Source: Elusimicrobia bacterium GWA2_56_46
Lineage (GTDB): Bacteria > Elusimicrobiota > Elusimicrobia > Elusimicrobiales > UBA9959
Length of the DNA stretch: 64,000 bases
Reading direction: 5' to 3'
NCBI GenBank assembly: GCA_001799575.1
Contig: MGTT01000016.1
Location: 124,001-188,000 of the forward strand
Shown here: in pieces, positions 2,903 to 40,953 of the stretch
Layout: the number at the start of each line of letters is the position of its first letter
How positions within the stretch are numbered: the first letter of the stretch is position 1
Notes under the pieces: generated by a model
Databases searched by the model: none
Told to the model about the DNA's origin: nothing
What the model saw: only the letters and a program-made list of their open reading frames with translations
Program-made: the position numbers and the translations under genes

Positions 2903-5416
2903 CGTGGCGGCAAGCTGGTCGAGTTTCAGGGAAAAGCGCTCTATTATAATGTCGGAGTGGTCGTAGAGAACCTTTATTTGAGCGGCGTACGGCGCCCAGC
3001 GCGCGGGTTCGGTTCCGACCTGTTCGAACAGCTCGTGCAGGCCGTTCTGAAGATGAAAGAACGCGTCCTGTAGATTCAGATAACGCGCCGCCTTGAGCAG
3101 TTTCAGAAGATCCGAGAGATTTTCGTAGGACGGGGCGGACAAGGCTTTCTGCACCGCGGCCAGCGCGCAGTCGGCGGCCTTTAGCGGGGGGACGGGGAAG
3201 CGCACCGTCAGCCGGCGGCGTCTGAGCGTTTCGGCCTGGGTGTAGATCAGATCCAGCAGTTCCGGATCGCGCGATAGGGAAAGTTCGTCGAAAAGTATCT
3301 CAAAAACCTCCGCGGCGTAAATTTCTATCTCATACTTTATATCGCTGAACGCCGAGAGATCTATCTTGGGGTTTTTTTCGAAGATATAGAGGTAGTCGCG
3401 CATTATTTTCAAAAGCTGGCCGCGGTTCTTATGGCGAACCGAGCGGATGAAGCCTTTTATGACCGCCGATTTCCCTTCGGGAGAAAGATCCTCGAAAGTA
3501 ACGCAGACCGCGCCCATGGCCGAGGCGCCGGCGCGCAGCGCGGGCATATCCGGAGCCCGGGCCGCCCGTCTGAATCCTTCCAGGTTTTCCCGCGTCGAGA
3601 GCCAGATGACCGGCAATTCCGAATCCTGCCGCGCGTAGAGGAACGAAAACGATCTGGTTTCAAGGTTCAGACGGTTCTCCGTCAGCAGTTCGCCTACGGC
3701 GGTTTCCAGCCCGTCCCGGGCGGCGGTTTCCTCTCCGGACAGCGTGTAGCTGATGCAGGCATGACCGGAGAGCGAAAGATCCCTCGCCGTTTCCGCTGAG
3801 ACCGCGGCCAAAGGGCGCCGCAGGCCGAAAAGGAATTTCTCAATAAGGCGGAAAGCCGCCAGAGTTTCCGTGGTCTGAGCCGAAAGGCGTGCGGAATCTT
3901 CGTAAACTTTGCGGCCGTTCCCAAGAGCCGCGTGATTGGAATGAGCAAGTTCCAGGGTGTCCAGGAAGCTTTTTTCTATATCCTTATTAAACCCCAGTTC
4001 ACCCAGAAGCGAGATAGCTTTGGCCGCGTATTTAAGGTTCTGCACCGGCTCGATCCTGGAGATATCCGAGAAGAACCAGCCGCAGCTGGTGAACATGAAG
4101 TTTACATGCTTCTGGAGCTCCAGGAGTTTCAGCGCTCTGGTCTTTTCCGCGGGGGAAAGGGTTCTGGAGGCGTGCTCCGCCAGGAAAGCCTCGACTTCCG
4201 GCCCGGAGGCGGCGGAAAAAAGGTCCGCATATTCGTTCCTGGCCAGCCAGATATCTTTCAGCAGGCTCCGGGCTTCCGTTTCGTAAACCTCGGCCGCCGT
4301 ATCCCGGAGCTGGTTCAGCGCGGCCCTGAACGGCAGCCTCCAGACCGTCCGGCCTCCGCTTTCGCTGCCGCAGTCGCAGCCTCCTTTCCAGCGGCGTACG
4401 CCGTGGGAGCAGCTCCAGGCGGTGCCGTCCCCGTCCGGGCCTTTTTTTATCTCCGCCTCGTACGCCGGCGGGTGCGAGTCCAGATAGGAGGAAAAATTAA
4501 TGGTTTCTATGCCGTGATTTTTCAATTCATGGCGGAAAGCGTGGGCCAGCGTCATATCCGCGAATTTGTGATGGTGGCCGAAAGTCTCGCCGTCCACCGC
4601 CAGGCTCAGGAGCTGGTCGTGCGCCGCGCCGTGCTCGAAGCCCGCGGCCAGGCGCGCGGCCAGATTCTCGGAATTCTTAAGCGCGCCCTCGAAGGCCAGG
4701 GCCTTGGAGAGCGGTCCGTCGTAGAAGAAAAGGGCTAGGCTGCGCCCTTTTATGGGTTCGCCGGCGGGGGTGCGGTCTAACCAGACATACGGCCGCCTGG
4801 TCTCGAAATGTCCTGTGGAAACGTCTGTCCACTTTTCCGAATCCAGCGGCCGTATCTTTTCCGCCTGGTAGGGCGACAGAATGGCGTAGCGCAGCCCCTG
4901 ATCCACCAGCACGCGCAGGGTGTTTTCATCGGCCGCGGTTTCCGGCAGCCACATGGCCTCGGCCCGGAACCCGAACCGGCGCTCGAAATCGGCCAGGCCC
5001 CATAGCACCTGGGTCAGGCGGTCGTTGAACGAGGCCAGCGGCAGGATGGTGTGGTTATAGGCCTGGGCTATGGCGTTGGAGTGACCGTGTTCCGCCCTGG
5101 TTTCGGCCGCGGTTCCGATGATCTTGGCGTAATAGGCGGGATAGCGTTTTTCCAGCCAGGAAAGAAGCGTGGGGCCGAAGTTGAAATTCAGGTATTTGTA
5201 ATTGTTAACCAGCTCCACGGCGCGGCCCATCTGGTCGTTTATCCGGGCGTAGGCGTTGGGGATATAGCATTCCCGGGCGATACGCTCATTCCAGTCATTA
5301 TAGGGGAAAGCCGAATCCTGGGGGGCGATCTCGCCCGTCCAGGGGTTCTCCCTGGGCGGCTGGTAAAAATGGGCGTGAATGGCCAGGTATTTCCGCCCAG
5401 GATGTTTTTTTTCCAT
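2885..5416 (-). CDS. Glycoside hydrolase family 57, DUF3536 domain-containing protein
   Basis: N-term KYLAIHAHFYQPPRENPWTGEI..DSAFPYNDWNERI; 843 aa. Confidence 0.88.
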   Translation of the reverse strand: MEKKHPGRKYLAIHAHFYQPPRENPWTGEIAPQDSAFPYNDWNERIARECYIPNAYARINDQMGRAVELVNNYKYLNFNFGPTLLSWLEKRYPAYYAKIIGTAAETRAEHGHSNAIAQAYNHTILPLASFNDRLTQVLWGLADFERRFGFRAEAMWLPETAADENTLRVLVDQGLRYAILSPYQAEKIRPLDSEKWTDVSTGHFETRRPYVWLDRTPAGEPIKGRSLALFFYDGPLSKALAFEGALKNSENLAARLAAGFEHGAAHDQLLSLAVDGETFGHHHKFADMTLAHAFRHELKNHGIETINFSSYLDSHPPAYEAEIKKGPDGDGTAWSCSHGVRRWKGGCDCGSESGGRTVWRLPFRAALNQLRDTAAEVYETEARSLLKDIWLARNEYADLFSAASGPEVEAFLAEHASRTLSPAEKTRALKLLELQKHVNFMFTSCGWFFSDISRIEPVQNLKYAAKAISLLGELGFNKDIEKSFLDTLELAHSNHAALGNGRKVYEDSARLSAQTTETLAAFRLIEKFLFGLRRPLAAVSAETARDLSLSGHACISYTLSGEETAARDGLETAVGELLTENRLNLETRSFSFLYARQDSELPVIWLSTRENLEGFRRAARAPDMPALRAGASAMGAVCVTFEDLSPEGKSAVIKGFIRSVRHKNRGQLLKIMRDYLYIFEKNPKIDLSAFSDIKYEIEIYAAEVFEILFDELSLSRDPELLDLIYTQAETLRRRRLTVRFPVPPLKAADCALAAVQKALSAPSYENLSDLLKLLKAARYLNLQDAFFHLQNGLHELFEQVGTEPARWAPYAAQIKVLYDHSDIIIERFSLKLDQLAATASRKG

Positions 5417-5789: not shown

Positions 5790-5805
5790 CTAAGACCAAT
5801 TATAG

Positions 5806-5858
5806 CAAAAAGGAGCCAGCCTCCTTTTGGGGGTCAAAAGGAGGCTGGCTCCTTTTTG
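5806..5858. repeat. Perfect 23-bp inverted repeat CAAAAAGGAGCCAGCCTCCTTTT / AAAAGGAGGCTGGCTCCTTTTTG; possible terminator or dispersed palindrome
   Basis: Direct reading; overlaps the 3' end of the CDS at 5834-6604. Confidence 0.85.
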
Positions 5859-6604
5859 ATTGTGAGCAGCCAGACGAGTTCCTTTTCGTAGGCTTCGGGC
5901 GAGGGGGATTTGAGTAATGTGAGCGGCTCGTTTTTCAGCAGGGCTTCCAGGAAGCGGTTTTTTGCGGTTCCGAAAGCGCGGGCGGACAGTTCGTCCAGCA
6001 GGACGCGGAAGTTTTCAAGGCTGGATAAGGTTTTCAGCGGGCCCAGACCGGAATAATCCTGTCCGTCGCAGTCGAGACTTAAACGGAGCGGCGCCGGTCC
6101 GCCGATAATGATATCGGCGGTGAAGACGGTTTCTTTCGCGGAGGGGGGCGTCGGCAGAGGCGGGATGGACGGGAAATAGCGGGCCCGCAGGGAATTTATG
6201 AGTCCGGCTTCCAGCGCGGACGTGTCTTTAGGCGGTATTTCTACGTCATAGGCGCGGGCGGTGAGCGCGCGGACGGTTTTGGCGGGTATATGGTCTTTTA
6301 AGACGCCCGAGGTAAAATAAAAACCTTCCGTCTTAGGTTCTATTTTAGATACGGGCAGCGGCGGGGGCGGGTTTCTGAGATCCTTGTGCGACAGAAGCAG
6401 GGTTTCGAAGCCATAAGCCGAGGCCCGGAGATTGAAAGCCGAAGCTTTGGCGAGCGACGCGTTCTCCAGCAGGAATCCGGGGCTTCTCCGGAACGCCGCG
6501 GCCGCTTCATCGCGGCTTATACAGCGCTCCTGGGCCAGGAAGCCGAACGTTTTTTCCCTGGAATAAGCCGGATCTTTATGGAGGACGCAGTAAAGTTCAA
6601 CCAT
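5834..6604 (-). CDS. Hypothetical protein, 256 aa
   Basis: Long ORF between adjacent minus-strand genes, 8-bp overlap with the upstream gene; no family recognised. Confidence 0.7.
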   Translation of the reverse strand: MVELYCVLHKDPAYSREKTFGFLAQERCISRDEAAAAFRRSPGFLLENASLAKASAFNLRASAYGFETLLLSHKDLRNPPPPLPVSKIEPKTEGFYFTSGVLKDHIPAKTVRALTARAYDVEIPPKDTSALEAGLINSLRARYFPSIPPLPTPPSAKETVFTADIIIGGPAPLRLSLDCDGQDYSGLGPLKTLSSLENFRVLLDELSARAFGTAKNRFLEALLKNEPLTLLKSPSPEAYEKELVWLLTIKKEPASF

Positions 6605-7910
6605 GACCCTTAGCCGCCATGATGTCCAGGATGATCCTGTCCACTTTGTCCATGCCGAATTTTGAAATGCGGGCGATATTCTTTATGGTCTCCTCTCCGG
6701 TGGCGCCTATGAAGCCTTCCAGTTCGGTTATCCCTTCCCCGTTCACCGCCATATAAGCCGCCCGGATGGCGGAGTCGGCCGAGGAGGCGACTTTAAGGGC
6801 GCAGCCGCTCTTGGCGCCGTCGCAGAGCATGCCGCCGATGTCGCTGATCACGGTGTTTACGGCGCGTCCGGCGGCTTTCAGATCCACGCCTTTCAACTGA
6901 TAGACGATGGCCACGGAGGCGCCGACGCCCGCGGCTACCGCGCAGCCGCAGATGGGGGCCAGTTCGCCGGTAAAAACTTTTATATAGGAGTTCACGAGAT
7001 GGGAAAGGGCGATGCTCTTTAAAACCCTGGGTTCCCTGATCCTGAACGCTTTGCCGACGAGGTAGGGCACCAATATGGCCACCACTCCCTGATTCCCGGA
7101 GCCGCCGCTGGACATCACTTTCACCGCGGCGCCGGCCATGCGCGCGTCGGTGGCGGCGGAAGTGGTCAGTTTGGCCGTGGAGAGAATGTCCTTTTTCAGG
7201 TATCCTTTTTTGATCAGATCCTGGATATAATAGCCGACTTTCTTCAGTTTAAGGCCTTCGCGCGAGGCCTTGAGATTGAATTCTATGCCTTGTTTTATGT
7301 AGGCCAGGTCGGCCGCGTCGGCTTTTTCAGCCTCCTTGAAAAGCCGCGAGAAATCGGCTTTCCTGAGGAGATTTTTGTAAGCGTCACGGCCGCTCTTCGC
7401 GCCGGCGCCTGAGGCGCCCGCGCGGGCGGCGACCGGCACCCCTCTGAACACGGTTTTGCCGTCCTTTTTAAGCAAAACTATATTGCCGTGTCCGCCGGAG
7501 AGAACGCAGACCGCCTTGTGACCGGCGGTTTTGAGACTAGCCTTTACATAAATACCCCGCCGCGAGTGATCCACGCTCAGTTTGATCCGGCCGCTCTTTA
7601 TGAGCGCTTTGGCCGCCCTGAGCGTTTCTGGAGTGACTTTCCGGAAGATTTCGGTTTTGAGGCCCGGCTCCCTTATCAGCGTTCCGAGCGCGGCCGCCAG
7701 GAGATTTCCTTTTTCGCCTTTGGTGTTGGGGAGGGCCACGGCGAGACCATTCTTGTAGATGCCCGGGTCGGTGCTTATTTCCGCTTTCAGGATCCGGCCG
7801 CGTCCCAGCAGCTCCGCCGCTGAGGCGGCGCAGAACGCGACGGCGACCGGCTCGGTGCAGCCCATGGCCGGGTTGACTTCGTATTTCAGGACTTCTTTTA
7901 GTAAGGACAT
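6597..7910 (-). CDS. UPF0597 / L-cysteine desulfidase-like (L-serine ammonia-lyase alpha-related) protein
   Basis: NPAMGCTEPVAVAF; GGSGNQGVVAILVPY; CGCAVAAGVGASVAIVY. Confidence 0.88.
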   Translation of the reverse strand: MSLLKEVLKYEVNPAMGCTEPVAVAFCAASAAELLGRGRILKAEISTDPGIYKNGLAVALPNTKGEKGNLLAAALGTLIREPGLKTEIFRKVTPETLRAAKALIKSGRIKLSVDHSRRGIYVKASLKTAGHKAVCVLSGGHGNIVLLKKDGKTVFRGVPVAARAGASGAGAKSGRDAYKNLLRKADFSRLFKEAEKADAADLAYIKQGIEFNLKASREGLKLKKVGYYIQDLIKKGYLKKDILSTAKLTTSAATDARMAGAAVKVMSSGGSGNQGVVAILVPYLVGKAFRIREPRVLKSIALSHLVNSYIKVFTGELAPICGCAVAAGVGASVAIVYQLKGVDLKAAGRAVNTVISDIGGMLCDGAKSGCALKVASSADSAIRAAYMAVNGEGITELEGFIGATGEETIKNIARISKFGMDKVDRIILDIMAAKGHG

Positions 7911-7917
7911 AGGGGGG

Positions 7918-7959
7918 GATTGAAGATTCAGGATTTAAGATTTAAAATTCAGAATGCCA
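7918..7959. repeat. Heptad repeat GATTGAA GATTCAG GATTTAA GATTTAA AATTCAG AATGCCA
   Basis: Six consecutive 7-mers; overlaps the stop and last codons of the MFS CDS. Confidence 0.85.
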
Positions 7960-9175
7960 ATTGTTTTTTTCTGGTCCAGATCGTCAGAGCGCCGGCTGAG
8001 ATAAAGGCGCACGCGGCGCCGACCACGAAAGGCGCGGCCGGGGAGACCTTTGTCCACAGAAGGCCGGCCAGGGCGCTGGCCGCGAAAGTCAGAAAGCCCA
8101 TGGTTCCCTGGAAGTAGCCCATGCCGGTGGCGCGGTTATCGGCGGCGCTCAGATTGGAAATTACGGCCTTGGCGATGCCTTCGTTGAACGCGCCGTAGAA
8201 GCCGTAAAGGGCGAACAGCGCCCAGATCATCCAGCCTTTGTCCGCCGCGGCGAAGCCGAGATAGACCGCGGAGAAAACCAGAAAACCGAAGATCATGCTC
8301 TTTATTTTTCCCAGCCTGTCGGACAGCCAGCCGGCGGGCGCGGCCAGAAAAGCGTAGACCAGATTATAGCCGGTGTACGCCAGGATGACGTGCGTGGTGG
8401 TGAAACCGGCGTTCTTGGCTTTCATTATCAGAAAAACGTCGCTGGAATTGCCTATCGCGAAAATGGCATAGAGGGAGACAAAGGTCTTGAAATCGGAAGT
8501 CATGGGGGTGCGGGGGGGAGTGGTCAGTGCAGAGTGATCAGTGGTTAGTGATGAGGTTCCGGATCCGCCGCTTTGGCCGGCGGCTTCTTTGACGAAATAG
8601 ATCAGGACGAAAACACCCAGTATGGCGGGGATAAAAGCGGCTTTGAAAATAAAACGGTAATCAGGGGCGTCGGCCGGCATACTGCTCAGCATCAGGAGGG
8701 CGACCAGCGGGCCGAGGGCCGCGCCCAGGGTATCCATGGCCCGATGAAAACCGAAAGCCTTGCCCCAGTGCTGTTTCTCTATGGAATCGGCGATAAGCGC
8801 GTCGCGGGCGGAAGTGCGCAGGCCTTTGCCCACGCGGTCTATAAAACGGGAGAACAGGACGAAATGCCAGGTAACGGCGAACGCGAGCACGGGCTTCGCT
8901 ATGGCCGAGAGGCTATAGCCGGCCACGATGAATGGCTTGCGCCTGGAAACCTTGTCCGACCACAGGCCTCCGAGGATCTTTAAAAAGCTGGCGGTGGATT
9001 CGGCCACGCCTTCTATGAGGCCCACCACGCTCATCGGGGCGCCCAGCACGGAGGTGAGAAAAATGGGCACTATGGGATATAGCATCTCGCTTGAAATATC
9101 GGTGAGGCCGCTTACAATGCCCAGGAAAGTCACGTTCCTGGTCAAACCTGTTCTCATGTCCTTGAAGAAACCCAT
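7949..9175 (-). CDS. MFS transporter
   Basis: 12-TM-like hydrophobic protein; RVGKGLRTSARDALIADS motif. Confidence 0.88.
   Translation of the reverse strand: MGFFKDMRTGLTRNVTFLGIVSGLTDISSEMLYPIVPIFLTSVLGAPMSVVGLIEGVAESTASFLKILGGLWSDKVSRRKPFIVAGYSLSAIAKPVLAFAVTWHFVLFSRFIDRVGKGLRTSARDALIADSIEKQHWGKAFGFHRAMDTLGAALGPLVALLMLSSMPADAPDYRFIFKAAFIPAILGVFVLIYFVKEAAGQSGGSGTSSLTTDHSALTTPPRTPMTSDFKTFVSLYAIFAIGNSSDVFLIMKAKNAGFTTTHVILAYTGYNLVYAFLAAPAGWLSDRLGKIKSMIFGFLVFSAVYLGFAAADKGWMIWALFALYGFYGAFNEGIAKAVISNLSAADNRATGMGYFQGTMGFLTFAASALAGLLWTKVSPAAPFVVGAACAFISAGALTIWTRKKQLAF
8519..8553. repeat. Heptad repeat AGTGGTC AGTGCAG AGTGATC AGTGGTT AGTGATG inside the MFS CDS
   Basis: Five consecutive 7-mers in frame, encoding SSLTTDHSALTT. 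Confidence 0.85.
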
Positions 9176-9193
9176 TAAACCTCCGGAAAAAAA

Positions 9194-9282
9194 TAGGGTA
9201 GAGGGTATAGAGGTTAGGGTAGAGGATGCAGAAATAAGGAATTTCCCACTCTAAACCCTGGACCCTATACCCTAACCCCTAC
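9194..9282. repeat. Inverted heptad arms TAGGGTA GAGGGTA TAGAGGT TAGGGTA GAGGATG ... ACCCTGG ACCCTAT ACCCTAA CCCCTAC
   Basis: Direct reading, intergenic between MFS gene and feoB. Confidence 0.85.
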
Positions 9283-9287
9283 CGTGA

Positions 9288-11246
9288 TTATACCAATAGA
9301 GCCAGAGCCGCCGCCACTAATACGGCGGCGCAGAAATTGAGGAGGAATACGCCCAGCGCGTCCTTAAGCCCCAGTTCCCTTATCGTGACGGCGAAAGCGC
9401 CGATGCAGGGCAGATAGAGCGTAAGAAATACCGAGGCGACCACCAGCTGGCCGGGCCCGAGTCCGAATGGGATCAGCATGGCGATGGAGATGTCCTTGCG
9501 CAGGAAGCCGAGCGTCATCACCGAGACGGTGTCGGCCGGCAGGCCCAGAAGATGCGTGACGGGGTATTTAAAGAGCCCGGTCAGGGCGTGCAGGATGCCG
9601 GTCATATTGAGGATATTTATTGTCAGCACCCCGGCCAGGATCATGGGCACCGCTTCGACCAGGAAATCTTTCAGGCGCAGCCAGGTCTTGGACCACAAGA
9701 CCGGGAGGGAGGGGAGCTGGTAAGGAGGGATCTCTATGAAGAGTTCCGGCGTTTCGCCTTTCAGGACGCGGTTAAGCGCCAGGCCCGCCGCCGCTCCCGC
9801 GCCCGCCAAAGCCAGGAACACGGCGATAGTGTATTTTACCGGATAAGGCGCCAGCACGCTTAAGATCATGGCGCTCTGCGGCATGCAGGGGGCGGCGGCC
9901 AGGGTCAGCGCCGTGGCTATAACGCGCTCGCGTCTGTTCTCAAGAACCCGCACCGCCAGGATGGCCGGCACTTTGCAGCCGAGCCCCAGCATAAGCGGGA
10001 TGGTGCCGTAGCCGTGGAGGCCCAGCTTATGCATCGTGCTGTCCAGCAAAACCGAAAGTCTGGGCAGATAGCCGAGATCCTCCAGCACGCCCAGCACCAG
10101 ATAGAAAGCTATGAGATAGGGGAGGACGACGATAAATGGAATGTAAAGTCCGGTGACGAGCAGGCCGAAGTCTTCCATGGGTTTCATGGAGGCGCCCACA
10201 AGCAGGGTCTTCAGCGCGCCGCTCAAATGGAGGAACACTGAGGCTTTTTCCAGCGCGGGTATGTACACGCCGTTGAAAAGAGGATCCAGAACCTGAGTGA
10301 TGAGTGTTTCTCCGGCCGTCCTTACGGCCGCGAACACGGCCGCCATGGCCGCGAAAGCGAAAGGGATGCCGGTGGAGGGCCTGGAGGTGAGGTCTTCCAG
10401 TTTCTCCAGCAAGCTGGGGTGTTTGTGGGCCAGGGTCTGGCATTGGGCCGTCAGTTTGCCTACGAGGAGCCATTTTTCGTCGGTGGAAGCGGGGGGCGCG
10501 TCGTGCCTCGGCAGACCTCCGGCCCGGAACGACCGCACTGCGTCGTTAAGGAGCGTGAGCCCTTCTCCGGTGGTCGCCACGAAAGGGATCACTTTTATTT
10601 TCAGCGCGGCTTCAAGTTTGGCGGAGTCTATGCTGATGCCGCGGCGTTTGGCGATATCCGACTTGTTCAGCAGGATTATCATGGGGGTTCCGAGGCCCAT
10701 AAGTTCCAGCGCGAAAAAAAGGTTTCTTTCCAGGTTGGTGGCGTCCAGCACGTGGATCAGCAGTTCTTTGCCGTCTTCAAGTATCATCCTGCCGGCGGCT
10801 TCCTCGGCTTTATTCGCCGGGCTCAGGCTGTAGGCGCCCGGCACGTCTATGACGGCGAAATGCTCTCCGCCAAGCACCGCCGAGCCGCTGGTGTAGCTTA
10901 CCGTTGTGCCGGGATAGTTGGAGGAGATCACGTCCAGGCCGGTCAGGCGGGAAAAAACCACGCTCTTTCCGACGTTCGGGTTGCCGGTCAGCAGGAGCGT
11001 GCCGCAGCTTACTTTTACGCTGATCCGCTTTGCCATACCCCGGCCCAGGGCGATCCTGGAACCCATCACTTCCACCGTAACCGGCCCCTTGTACCCCTTG
11101 GGCGTCCTTTTGGTCAACTGGCGGCCGGAGTGTATTCCCATAGTCTGAAGTTTTTCCGCCAGTCCGGGAGGGCCGGAAATATCGATGACGCAGCCCTTTT
11201 CGTGTTCCTTCATGGAAAGCAGATCCGAGATTTTGTCGTTTTTCAT
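9288..11246 (-). CDS. feoB: Ferrous iron transport protein, FeoA domain fused to FeoB
   Basis: FeoA-like N-term (KTMGIHSGRQL-type: AEKLQTMGIHSGRQLTKRTPKGYKGPVTVEVMGSRIALGRGMAKRI) then GNPNVGKS..NYPGTTV..DVPGAYSL G domain and permease core. Confidence 0.93.
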   Translation of the reverse strand: MKNDKISDLLSMKEHEKGCVIDISGPPGLAEKLQTMGIHSGRQLTKRTPKGYKGPVTVEVMGSRIALGRGMAKRISVKVSCGTLLLTGNPNVGKSVVFSRLTGLDVISSNYPGTTVSYTSGSAVLGGEHFAVIDVPGAYSLSPANKAEEAAGRMILEDGKELLIHVLDATNLERNLFFALELMGLGTPMIILLNKSDIAKRRGISIDSAKLEAALKIKVIPFVATTGEGLTLLNDAVRSFRAGGLPRHDAPPASTDEKWLLVGKLTAQCQTLAHKHPSLLEKLEDLTSRPSTGIPFAFAAMAAVFAAVRTAGETLITQVLDPLFNGVYIPALEKASVFLHLSGALKTLLVGASMKPMEDFGLLVTGLYIPFIVVLPYLIAFYLVLGVLEDLGYLPRLSVLLDSTMHKLGLHGYGTIPLMLGLGCKVPAILAVRVLENRRERVIATALTLAAAPCMPQSAMILSVLAPYPVKYTIAVFLALAGAGAAAGLALNRVLKGETPELFIEIPPYQLPSLPVLWSKTWLRLKDFLVEAVPMILAGVLTINILNMTGILHALTGLFKYPVTHLLGLPADTVSVMTLGFLRKDISIAMLIPFGLGPGQLVVASVFLTLYLPCIGAFAVTIRELGLKDALGVFLLNFCAAVLVAAALALLV

Positions 11247-38144: not shown

Positions 38145-38351
38145 ATGATATCTAAAAACATCGGGAATCCGGACAGAATTATCCGGATAGTTGTCGGGCT
38201 TGGGCTCGGTTATGTGGCGTTCATGAGTTCGGGGCCGGCCGCCGTCATTCTATGGATAGCCGCCCTGGCGGCGCTGGTTACCGGCCTGGTAGGCTGGTGC
38301 GGCGTCTATCTCTTACTAGGCATCAACACCTGCAAAATAGACAAGCCATAG
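38145..38351 (+). CDS. DUF2892/YgaP-type inner membrane protein
   Basis: NIGNPDRIIRIVVGLGLGYVAF; LVGWCGVYLLLGINTCK. Confidence 0.85.
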   Translation: MISKNIGNPDRIIRIVVGLGLGYVAFMSSGPAAVILWIAALAALVTGLVGWCGVYLLLGINTCKIDKP

Positions 38352-38376
38352 TCCAAAAATTGCGCGCAATTTTCGG

Positions 38377-38411
38377 AAGGCTAAGGGATAAAGGCTTAAG
38401 GATGAGGGCTG
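38377..38411. repeat. Heptad repeat AAGGCTA AGGGATA AAGGCTT AAGGATG AGGGCTG
   Basis: Five consecutive 7-mers; words shared with 34102-34188. Confidence 0.85.
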
Positions 38412-38420
38412 AGGAAATAA

Positions 38421-38963
38421 TTATTGTTTTTTCAGCTTAAAGGTTTTGAGGAAATCGCGCCAGGCTTTTTTTCCGTTATACTGCGGATCAGGCACGGAGT
38501 CTCCGTAGGAATATTTCAGCACAAAAAAGCGCTTTCCCGCCGGGACTACGCAGAATTCCTCGGTAGTGAATTCGGCGGGGCCTGAAGCGTCCGGGGGGGG
38601 CAGGCGCACCGGGACCTTTCTGCGGTAAATTATGACGCGCGCGCCGCCCGCCGCCGCGCTTTCCAGTTTCTCGGCCGGTTTGCCGCCGCTGGAGCGGGCC
38701 TCAAATCCCACCAGAAAGTCGCCGGATGTTTTATAGCGCGAACCTTGTCCGCCGGCCAGCCGGATCGTTATGGCGTGCAGATCCCTGGATAGTACGGTCC
38801 GCGGATCGCCTTGCGTCAGGCCGTTCTCGGATGTCCAGCCCTGCGGGATGGTGTATTGTGATAGATCAGAGATCAGTTCGCCGGTTTTTGCCATGGAGGG
38901 CTCCTTAGCCGCCGCTGCGCAGGCGGACAGCAATAATAGTGTTAGAACGGCGTGTGTTTTCAT
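38421..38963 (-). CDS. Secreted hypothetical lipoprotein-like protein
   Basis: Signal peptide with LLSACAAA lipobox-like motif; 4-bp overlap with the upstream gene. Confidence 0.6.
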   Translation of the reverse strand: MKTHAVLTLLLLSACAAAAKEPSMAKTGELISDLSQYTIPQGWTSENGLTQGDPRTVLSRDLHAITIRLAGGQGSRYKTSGDFLVGFEARSSGGKPAEKLESAAAGGARVIIYRRKVPVRLPPPDASGPAEFTTEEFCVVPAGKRFFVLKYSYGDSVPDPQYNGKKAWRDFLKTFKLKKQ

Positions 38964-40177
38964 AATATTCCTCCGCAGCCGGAAGCTTTATCTTTTTCCC
39001 AAAGTTCCTCTAGCTGCGCACGTGAGATCTGTCCCGGTGGGGTCGGCGGCGCCTCGGACTCCCAGGTTTTGCCCTGCATTAAGCCGGTCAGAACCTGTCT
39101 GCGTTCTTCCATTACCCGCGCTTTTTCCTTGAAATAGCCGTTATCGGCTTTGGCCGCGAGGCTGCCGGTCCAGGCTTTGCCCGCTTCTCCGTCGCATTTT
39201 CTTATAAGCGATTCAAGGTGCTCCTTTATTTTCCGGAGGTTATATTCGGTGTCCGGGAGAGACTGTAATGTGGCGTAAAGACTTTCGTTCAGGCTCGTGA
39301 ATGGATCGCCGTCCATGTCGTGTTCCTCGATGAAATGGTCGATTATTCTCTGCCAGGTTACAAGAGATTCCCGCCGCGCGGGGAGGCCGAGCAGCAGTGT
39401 TTCAATGTCCGCCAGGCGCTTTTCGTAAGCGGTACGCGGGGATTTCATCTCCTCCGTGCTCAGTTTTGCTGCGTAGGCGGCCGTGGTCGATTGCAGCCGT
39501 TTATGGTAGTCGTCAGGATCCGCCATGTATTTCCAGGACCAGCCGTCAGTGATCTTGTTTCCCAGTTCCGCTCCCACCGTCCAGCCTATCAGTCCGGCGT
39601 TGGCTTCCTCGTTCCGGTGGAATTTATAGACTTCCGCAACTCCGTATCTTTCCGCGCGTTTCCGTTCGAGGACATGGCCTAAGAGCTCGTGCGCCGTCAC
39701 CGCCGGAGCGTTCTCCGTCTGTGCCGCCAGGTAGGCGCTGTTCAGGGCGACTTCCGGAGGGTTTTTTTCCGTGTCGGAGTAGCCGTCGTCGGTCCAGAAT
39801 GTCTTTTTGCCGTTGATCTCGAAGATTTCGGTGCCGGGGACGTCTTCAAAAGCGATAACGGCTTTCGCGTCTTCCTTGATGAATTCGGCGGCCAGTTCCC
39901 TGGCTGTGGGGCTGTCCATCATCCTGGCGAGTATAGCGTTCAGGGCGGCGCCCTCGGCGGGAACGCCGCGGTCGTTTATGGTCACGTGTTTTTTGAGTTC
40001 CGCCAGCAGCCTGGCTTTATCCTGGGGGGAGGGGGATTGCGCGGCCAAGGCGGCCCGGCGGACAGCGCCGTCAAAGAACGCCTTTCCCTCCTGCGCTGAG
40101 GCGTCAAGATCCTCCGCCCGCGCGCCGACAGCGGCGGCAATAACGAGCAGAGCCATGGTGAGCAGCCGGTGTTTCAT
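38960..40177 (-). CDS. Secreted hypothetical protein
   Basis: Start at MKHRLLTMALLVIAAAVGARAED signal peptide; AVTAHELLGHVLERKRAE resembles a HExxH-type motif. Confidence 0.65.
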   Translation of the reverse strand: MKHRLLTMALLVIAAAVGARAEDLDASAQEGKAFFDGAVRRAALAAQSPSPQDKARLLAELKKHVTINDRGVPAEGAALNAILARMMDSPTARELAAEFIKEDAKAVIAFEDVPGTEIFEINGKKTFWTDDGYSDTEKNPPEVALNSAYLAAQTENAPAVTAHELLGHVLERKRAERYGVAEVYKFHRNEEANAGLIGWTVGAELGNKITDGWSWKYMADPDDYHKRLQSTTAAYAAKLSTEEMKSPRTAYEKRLADIETLLLGLPARRESLVTWQRIIDHFIEEHDMDGDPFTSLNESLYATLQSLPDTEYNLRKIKEHLESLIRKCDGEAGKAWTGSLAAKADNGYFKEKARVMEERRQVLTGLMQGKTWESEAPPTPPGQISRAQLEELWEKDKASGCGGIL

Positions 40178-40257
40178 AAGATCCGTAAATAGTCTAATGG
40201 ACGTGGTACCGGATGTCAAGGGCACTGAGTTCCCCAATCCTCCGCTAACAATGAAAA

Positions 40258-40377
40258 ATGGCGGCGGGCTGCAAGTGCGGGGGCCTGCCAGGGGGTGGCC
40301 TTTGCGCGTTCCCTCGGCGGCCTGTGGGGTCGCAAAGGCCACCCCCTGTCACCCCTCCAACTATACCCCGCCGCCAT
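40258..40377. repeat. Palindromic module A, outer stem ATGGCGGCGGG/CCCGCCGCCAT, inner stem GGGGGTGGCCTTTGCG/CGCAAAGGCCACCCCC
   Basis: Direct reading of stems. Confidence 0.85.
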
Positions 40378-40433
40378 CCTCCCTGTATAGAGCATTGCGG
40401 AAGCAGCCGTATCGGCGGGGAGCCCTTTGGCTC

Positions 40434-40661
40434 ATGCGGATATTTGAAATGGACAATAATGGTGGGCCATTATTTCAGGATCGCCTTGTGTTGTATCGTT
40501 ATTTTAACTACAGGCCGGCCTATTTTGAGGTGCCTCGGATATCCGAGATAAAAGAGTATATAGCAACCGACACCGAACGTAAGGTGGAAGTTCATTTCGC
40601 CTCTCCAGATGCCACATTGTTCAGTGTAAGGAACACCCTGCAATATCGCAAAGCCGGATAA
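40434..40661 (+). CDS. Small orphan ORF in the core of the candidate element (MRIFEMDNNGGPLFQDRLVLYRYFNYRPAYFEVPRISEIKEY..)
   Basis: ATG to TAA in the AT-richer core; coding-like but unverified. Confidence 0.35.
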   Translation: MRIFEMDNNGGPLFQDRLVLYRYFNYRPAYFEVPRISEIKEYIATDTERKVEVHFASPDATLFSVRNTLQYRKAG

Positions 40662-40735
40662 GTATATTATTGAGCATTGGAATCGTATAGGCACCACCAT
40701 CGAATGGTTTGGTTATTTCTATCTTATCTGGAAGG

Positions 40736-40874
40736 ATGGCGGCGGGGTATAACTGGAGGGGTGACAGCCATGGGTCGGATCGGGCCGGAGGGGAACCGGC
40801 GCGAAGTCGCCGGGCCCCGTAGGCCCGATGGGCCCCATGGCTGGCAGGCCCCCGAACCGGCAGCCCGCCGCCAT
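40736..40874. repeat. Palindromic module B (inverted relative to A), same outer stem, different inner stem CCATGGGTCGGATCGGGCC/GGCCCGATGGGCCCCATGG
   Basis: Direct reading of stems. Confidence 0.85.
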
Positions 40875-40953
40875 TTCTCCGCTTTCACCCAATGGATGAA
40901 ATCCTCTCATCAATGATGCAGGCTTGTTAGCGGAGGATCAGGGAAATTTTGCG

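Follow-up and report, generated by a model that had tools for sequence, protein, structure and literature searches.

Composite elements formed by paired MITEs have been described for the TIMEs, which are derived from Tn3 and for which duplications of 5 to 6 bp are reported (TIME-COMP; PMC4133298). Members of the IS1380 family mobilise neighbouring DNA, reportedly through the misrecognition of ends (PMC9330008), and the palindromes of the REP/TnpA-REP/RAYT systems are high-copy intergenic repeats with conserved mismatches (PMC8266576, PMC2817692) that serve as targets of IS110-type elements (PMC1525189). The unit considered here lies in a 64-kb stretch of DNA, which was analysed as a whole (the window). 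It is like TIME-COMP in that two oppositely oriented MITEs flank a piece of DNA in an arrangement resembling a composite transposon, but it is derived from IS1380 rather than Tn3, carries hairpin cassettes, and is known from sequence alone. It is a MITE composite, an already known kind of element, in a new variant. Very probably, it is a non-autonomous composite of two IS1380-derived MITEs placed on either side of a fragment from a host gene for a secreted protein and is moved by an IS1380 transposase acting in trans. Read in this way, the composite is an example, from a deep-branching, uncultured phylum, of the ability of IS1380 miniature elements to carry pieces of host genes. The palindromes within it are a separate family of hairpin cassettes in the subterminal region, not the transposition ends; they apparently constitute an undescribed family of structured cassettes that is widespread in Elusimicrobia, and the cassettes carried by the unit may be a new class.

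A sequence-only reading of the window had marked out a 702-bp unit with perfect 15-bp terminal inverted repeats (TIRs), two inverted palindromic modules, and an AT-richer core, situated between two minus-strand genes, and all of these features are present as described. The left TIR, ATCCTCCGCTAACAA (positions 40237 to 40251, plus strand), has its exact reverse complement in the right TIR (40924 to 40938, minus strand); both are IS1380-type ends, and no further copy with ≤2 mismatches was found in the 64-kb window. Because the terminal repeat continues outward past these 15 bp, as TTCCC[CT][AG]ATCCTCCGCTAACAA (22 nt, 91%), the entire non-autonomous element with extended terminal repeats is better delimited as 40232 to 40943 (712 bp, no strand assigned), with similarity to a second copy on contig C12 bounded by the TIRs. 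The palindromic modules (40258 to 40377, 120 nt; 40736 to 40874, 139 nt) are mutually inverted, and the arms of the left and right modules can also pair with one another. Both have a GC content of 72%, against 43.5% in the core (40420 to 40725, plus strand) and 57.7% in the window overall, and the folding energy of the unit corresponds to a z of -15.8 relative to shuffles. The unit stops just upstream of a promoter-like TTGACA-17-TAGACT (40219 to 40191) of the left gene. Its 712 bp contain no transposase gene, and the core is without a family match. Within the 2.66 Mb (30 contigs) of its own genome, about 40 places match the 702-bp unit, nearly all of them only in part, and the ATCCTCCGCTAACAA repeat with ≤2 mismatches occurs at 14 places versus 4 for a reversed-pattern control. 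The unit is thus not single-copy and its TIRs have matches elsewhere, so that neither of these two grounds for discarding it as a mobile element holds.

The source of the ends became apparent when a multi-copy end sequence taken from a relative was used as the query and led to two elements. The first (genome G067, locus L200, 4779 to 6465) is a complete 1.69-kb IS1380 bounded by TIRs CCCAAATCCTCCGCTAA and encoding a 449-aa transposase; it lacks the hairpin cassette. The second (genome G073, locus L199; CAIXBR010000052.1) encodes a 448-aa transposase (NF033539, E = 1e-82; PF13701, E = 1e-50) and has the end CCCTAATCCTCCGCTAA, situated at the end of the contig. At a distance of 4 kb from this transposase lies a 278-bp MITE (1083 to 1360) with both TIRs and one hairpin. 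The terminal repeats of the window unit are therefore common to autonomous IS1380 elements of relatives, and the autonomous relative with the same TIR that the sequence-only reading had proposed to look for does exist, in the IS1380 family; a 27-codon fragment of an IS1380 transposase was also met on contig C27 of the unit's own genome. The likeness to the family of ISEcp1 and ISPme1 thus comprises short terminal repeats and, in the autonomous copies of relatives, a transposase of the NF033539/PF13701 family. The window unit differs in having no transposase, in using two outer ends, and in carrying subterminal hairpin cassettes, which are not present in every IS1380 copy seen here. Ten related elements retain both ends, and in four of them the 5-bp target duplication is exact; the best 5-mer flank matches of the ten sum to 42, versus a shuffled-partner mean of 30.1, with 0 of 20,000 shuffles reaching as high. 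The expected target duplications were accordingly seen at related copies but not at the window copy itself, where the best match is 3 of 5 (chance level), perhaps through erosion or because the two ends arose separately; none was seen at the C12 copy. The earlier classification of the unit as non-autonomous and MITE-like is borne out by the matching TIRs elsewhere, the many relatives, the autonomous IS1380 with the same ends, and the 5-bp duplications at related copies.

The two halves of the unit can each be aligned with the 278-bp MITE. The left MITE (40231 to 40419, minus strand) matches it in two pieces (40231 to 40251 and 40253 to 40419, the latter 70% identical) and has lost its inner terminal repeat together with about 38 bp of the subterminal region; the right MITE (40729 to 40938, plus strand), which is 89% identical, has likewise lost the inner terminal repeat. 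Each half thus keeps its outer TIR and lacks the inner one, and the two are arranged head to head. Between them, the core includes part of a gene from a host family of secreted proteins (40449 to 40643, plus strand) with 57% aa identity to a 159-aa open reading frame (ORF) of the C12 copy. Relatives of this ORF in genomes G008 and G003 and on contig C10 of the unit's own genome (G000) are longer proteins, most of them with a signal-peptide-like start, and both cores therefore resemble truncated members of a family of host genes; neither Pfam nor NCBIfam gave a match for the core and the 159-aa ORF family. As we infer it, the core would have been captured once two MITEs came to lie on either side of part of a host gene. 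Acting in trans, an IS1380 transposase would then recognise the ends of about 20 bp and move the whole composite, with a 5-bp target duplication. At the insertion site, a block at 38145 to 40943, consisting of two small genes, gene A (with a signal-peptide-like start), and the element, lies between the RluA and M28 peptidase genes. Two sister species (G001 and G002) have the RluA gene immediately after the M28 peptidase gene, so that this block is lineage specific. The search for an empty site in relatives accordingly yielded no clean one at the window locus in these two species, from which the larger block is missing.

Within the MITEs, the palindromes are cassettes of defined structure. The left hairpin cassette (40258 to 40377, minus strand; outer stem ATGGCGGCGGG/CCCGCCGCCAT) has a type 2 interior and extends from foot to foot over 40280 to 40355 (minus strand). 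The right cassette, which with its outer stem occupies 40736 to 40874 (plus strand), has a type 1 interior and extends from foot to foot over 40758 to 40852 (plus strand; GGGGTGAC...GGCAGGCCCC). Aligned cassettes (74 to 239 nt) share a nearly fixed foot, GGGTG[N]C...G[R]CAGG[M]CCC, with a 3-nt bulge, inside which there are several unrelated kinds of interior; the simplest guess is that interiors are exchanged by recombination between the conserved feet. The stems of types 1 and 2 vary among copies and yet pair in 98.1% and 99.2% of cells, respectively, with changes on both sides at 13 pairs in each of the two alignments. This covariation lies above all 500 shuffles (in one measure, 1 of 500) and above all slid versions, values that are strong but are not formal probabilities, since the shuffles leave relatedness in. 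At the foot position between GGGTG and C, the combinations with the partner position among 123 distinct sequences are A.G (60), G.A (44), C-G (12), T-A (2), and others (5). To judge from these sequences, the position seems to call for either a purine-purine or a Watson-Crick pair. Such A.G/G.A covariation is unusual and is a direct sign of selection on a non-Watson-Crick pair. Covariance-model matches of the left cassette (E = 6e-5) were rejected as a sign of homology, the reverse strands of right-type cassettes scoring equally. Two hairpins of this genome have no interior (GGGGGCCTGTGTCCCACCCC in L010, contig C15, about 203017 to 203086; GGGTGACAGCCATGGGTTGGCAGGCCC in L031, contig C9, 66374 to 66515) and are either empty feet or deletions. 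Separately, one and the same insert, GCCGCCTGTTGGCCATAGGCCCTGTTGCGGCACGCCCATAGGTCA (about 43 bp, to within a base), recurs in type 1 hairpin tips at four loci (L023, L029, L077, and L080) from three species, as if hairpin tips were insertion sites.

The cassettes are found well beyond the window. Of the 59 genomes of the host's family, 28 contain the 3′ foot pattern, which is present 55 times in this genome, with controls near zero. With a two-sided pattern, cassettes with the inner motif ATGGGTCGGATCG...CGATGGGCCCCAT were also recovered in other families of the class Elusimicrobia; here the controls gave about one match in many large genomes, and hence only matches showing the motif in their sequence were counted. 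All of the named genomes with pattern matches are uncultured Elusimicrobia. Several contexts can be distinguished. In IS1380, a type 1 cassette lies between the TIR and the transposase start (L199 and, on contig C44 of G001, L072), and a type 3 cassette lies in the C27 fragment. In an IS256 element (L033; NF033543, E = 3e-91), a cassette directly follows the transposase stop codon, and shortened IS256 derivatives carry type 1 or type 3 interiors. Two repeated loci of genome G192 (L243 and L244) have paired inverted cassettes with different outer stems around transposase-like fragments. These fragments match the IS1182 transposase weakly (E = 0.0005 to 0.002, below the cut-off), which would make IS1182 a candidate for a third IS family that uses the cassette. 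Solitary intergenic cassettes also exist, and cassette positions are mostly intergenic. In families f13 to f15, the sequences flanking the foot on the outside pair into copy-specific stems (a score of 14.0 for own pairs versus 7.2 for mixed ones), and gene ends face the cassette 20 times versus 6 for gene starts, based on crude ORF calls; in the host's family, the two are about balanced. At one locus (L074, contig C127 of G001), an IS110-family transposase gene (NF033542; 2880 to 3899) lies inside a cassette, the parts of which are at 2364 to 2460 and 3981 to 4073. At another (L202; contig C66 of G045, 5800 to 10229), four type 3 cassettes, spaced at about 850 bp, are interleaved with ORF6N-domain genes that have a common C-terminal end, an arrangement resembling a tandem gene-plus-hairpin array.

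Comparison with known systems did not place the cassettes in any of them. The splitting of one cassette by IS110 recalls the targeting of REP by IS110-type elements. Unlike REP/RAYT palindromes, however, the cassettes are much longer (74 to 239 nt), lie inside IS ends rather than beside the Y1 genes checked, and have no GTAG motif: no GTAG-type tetranucleotide was met 5′ of the cassette hairpin, and a GGAG there is confined to the window's family and absent from the other families. Integron attC sites offer an analogy only, in their conserved imperfect ends, extrahelical bases, and variable palindromic interior, but their RYYYAAC/GTTRRRY boxes were not seen in the aligned cassette feet, and the loci that were read contained no integrase. 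Phage and plasmid sequences gave no match to the cassettes, and a viral origin was discarded after searches with the 22-mer and foot patterns returned nothing or two chance matches in one gene. We found no paper on such repeats in Elusimicrobia. Three candidate readings of the cassettes are considered, namely, a shield or regulator kept by the IS, a structured RNA, and an independently mobile hairpin. As a guess, the cassette might shield IS genes from outside transcription or bind a host or IS protein. We tentatively entertain, at somewhat less than even chances, a new class of mobile structured cassette, occurring class-wide and having a nearly fixed foot and interchangeable interiors, that a dedicated mechanism with folded DNA or RNA as its substrate would repeatedly place in unrelated IS subterminal regions and in inverted repeats between genes. 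That unrelated IS families share one foot, with interiors swapped and pairing kept, makes this a testable case for an IS-protecting or self-spreading hairpin.

A possible, though rather less than probable, alternative for the cassettes, which is compatible with the composite explanation of the unit, is that they are structured RNAs (cis-regulatory or small RNAs) riding on MITEs, with selection acting on the RNA. The conserved internal loops, the variable stems with many compensatory changes, and the mostly intergenic positions are consistent with this, and the roughly twofold excess of purine-purine over pyrimidine-pyrimidine mismatches on one strand is suggestive only. Arguing in the other direction, no cassette matched an Rfam 15 model at the gathering score; on the window, Rfam returned just eukaryotic microRNA models far below their cut-offs, which we take as generic hairpin scores. 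Moreover, the bias of G-T versus A-C (51 to 38) is weak and comes from copies that are related rather than independent, and the balance of facing gene ends and starts in the host's family likewise speaks against an RNA.

For the unit as a whole, it is unlikely that the two MITEs were inserted independently, close together and in opposite orientation, around ordinary DNA, and never moved as one. The want of a target duplication flanking the outer TIRs of the window copy and the different hairpin types of the two halves would fit such a history. Against it stands the second composite (C12, 35356 to 36226), which, in another neighbourhood, has the same layout with the same two ends, the same subterminal loss of about 38 bp on the left, and a core related to that of the window unit. 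Its similarity to the window composite begins and ends at the TIRs, beyond which the flanks differ. The identity between the two is 95% over the left 168 bp, 78% in the core, and 68% in the right part; the greater divergence of the core than of the left ends counts against movement of the composite as a unit. On balance, we infer that the composite is moved by IS1380 transposase.

The sequence-only reading had also offered a hairpin-dependent mechanism for the 702-bp unit, and a reading in which a single-strand (Y1/REP-type) transposase moves the unit by way of its hairpins, the TIRs being incidental, might draw on the very strong hairpins, the occurrence of cassettes alone and in several outer contexts, and the Y1 transposase genes of this genome. 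We consider it very improbable, as the TIRs match IS1380 ends with 5-bp duplications, the hairpin is missing from the complete IS1380 copy, and the Y1 loci fetched are without the cassette; given a complete hairpin-free IS1380, the hairpin-dependent proposal is not supported. That the TIR is a coincidence and the palindromes are no more than ordinary terminators of transcription or repeats that arose by chance is barely credible and was rejected, since, although many cassettes lie between genes, the repeat counts exceed controls, the covariation exceeds every shuffle bar one in a single measure, and the window hairpins are not followed by a T-run. An origin from REP/RAYT was set aside as well, no cassette lying beside the Y1 loci fetched from 12 genomes. 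One of these loci has its own short palindrome: on contig C6 of this genome, AAAAGGTGCC(T/A)GGCACCTTTT flanks the Y1 transposase gene (L122, 1552 to 1618 and 2274 to 2295) and is likely a separate REP-type repeat of this genome.
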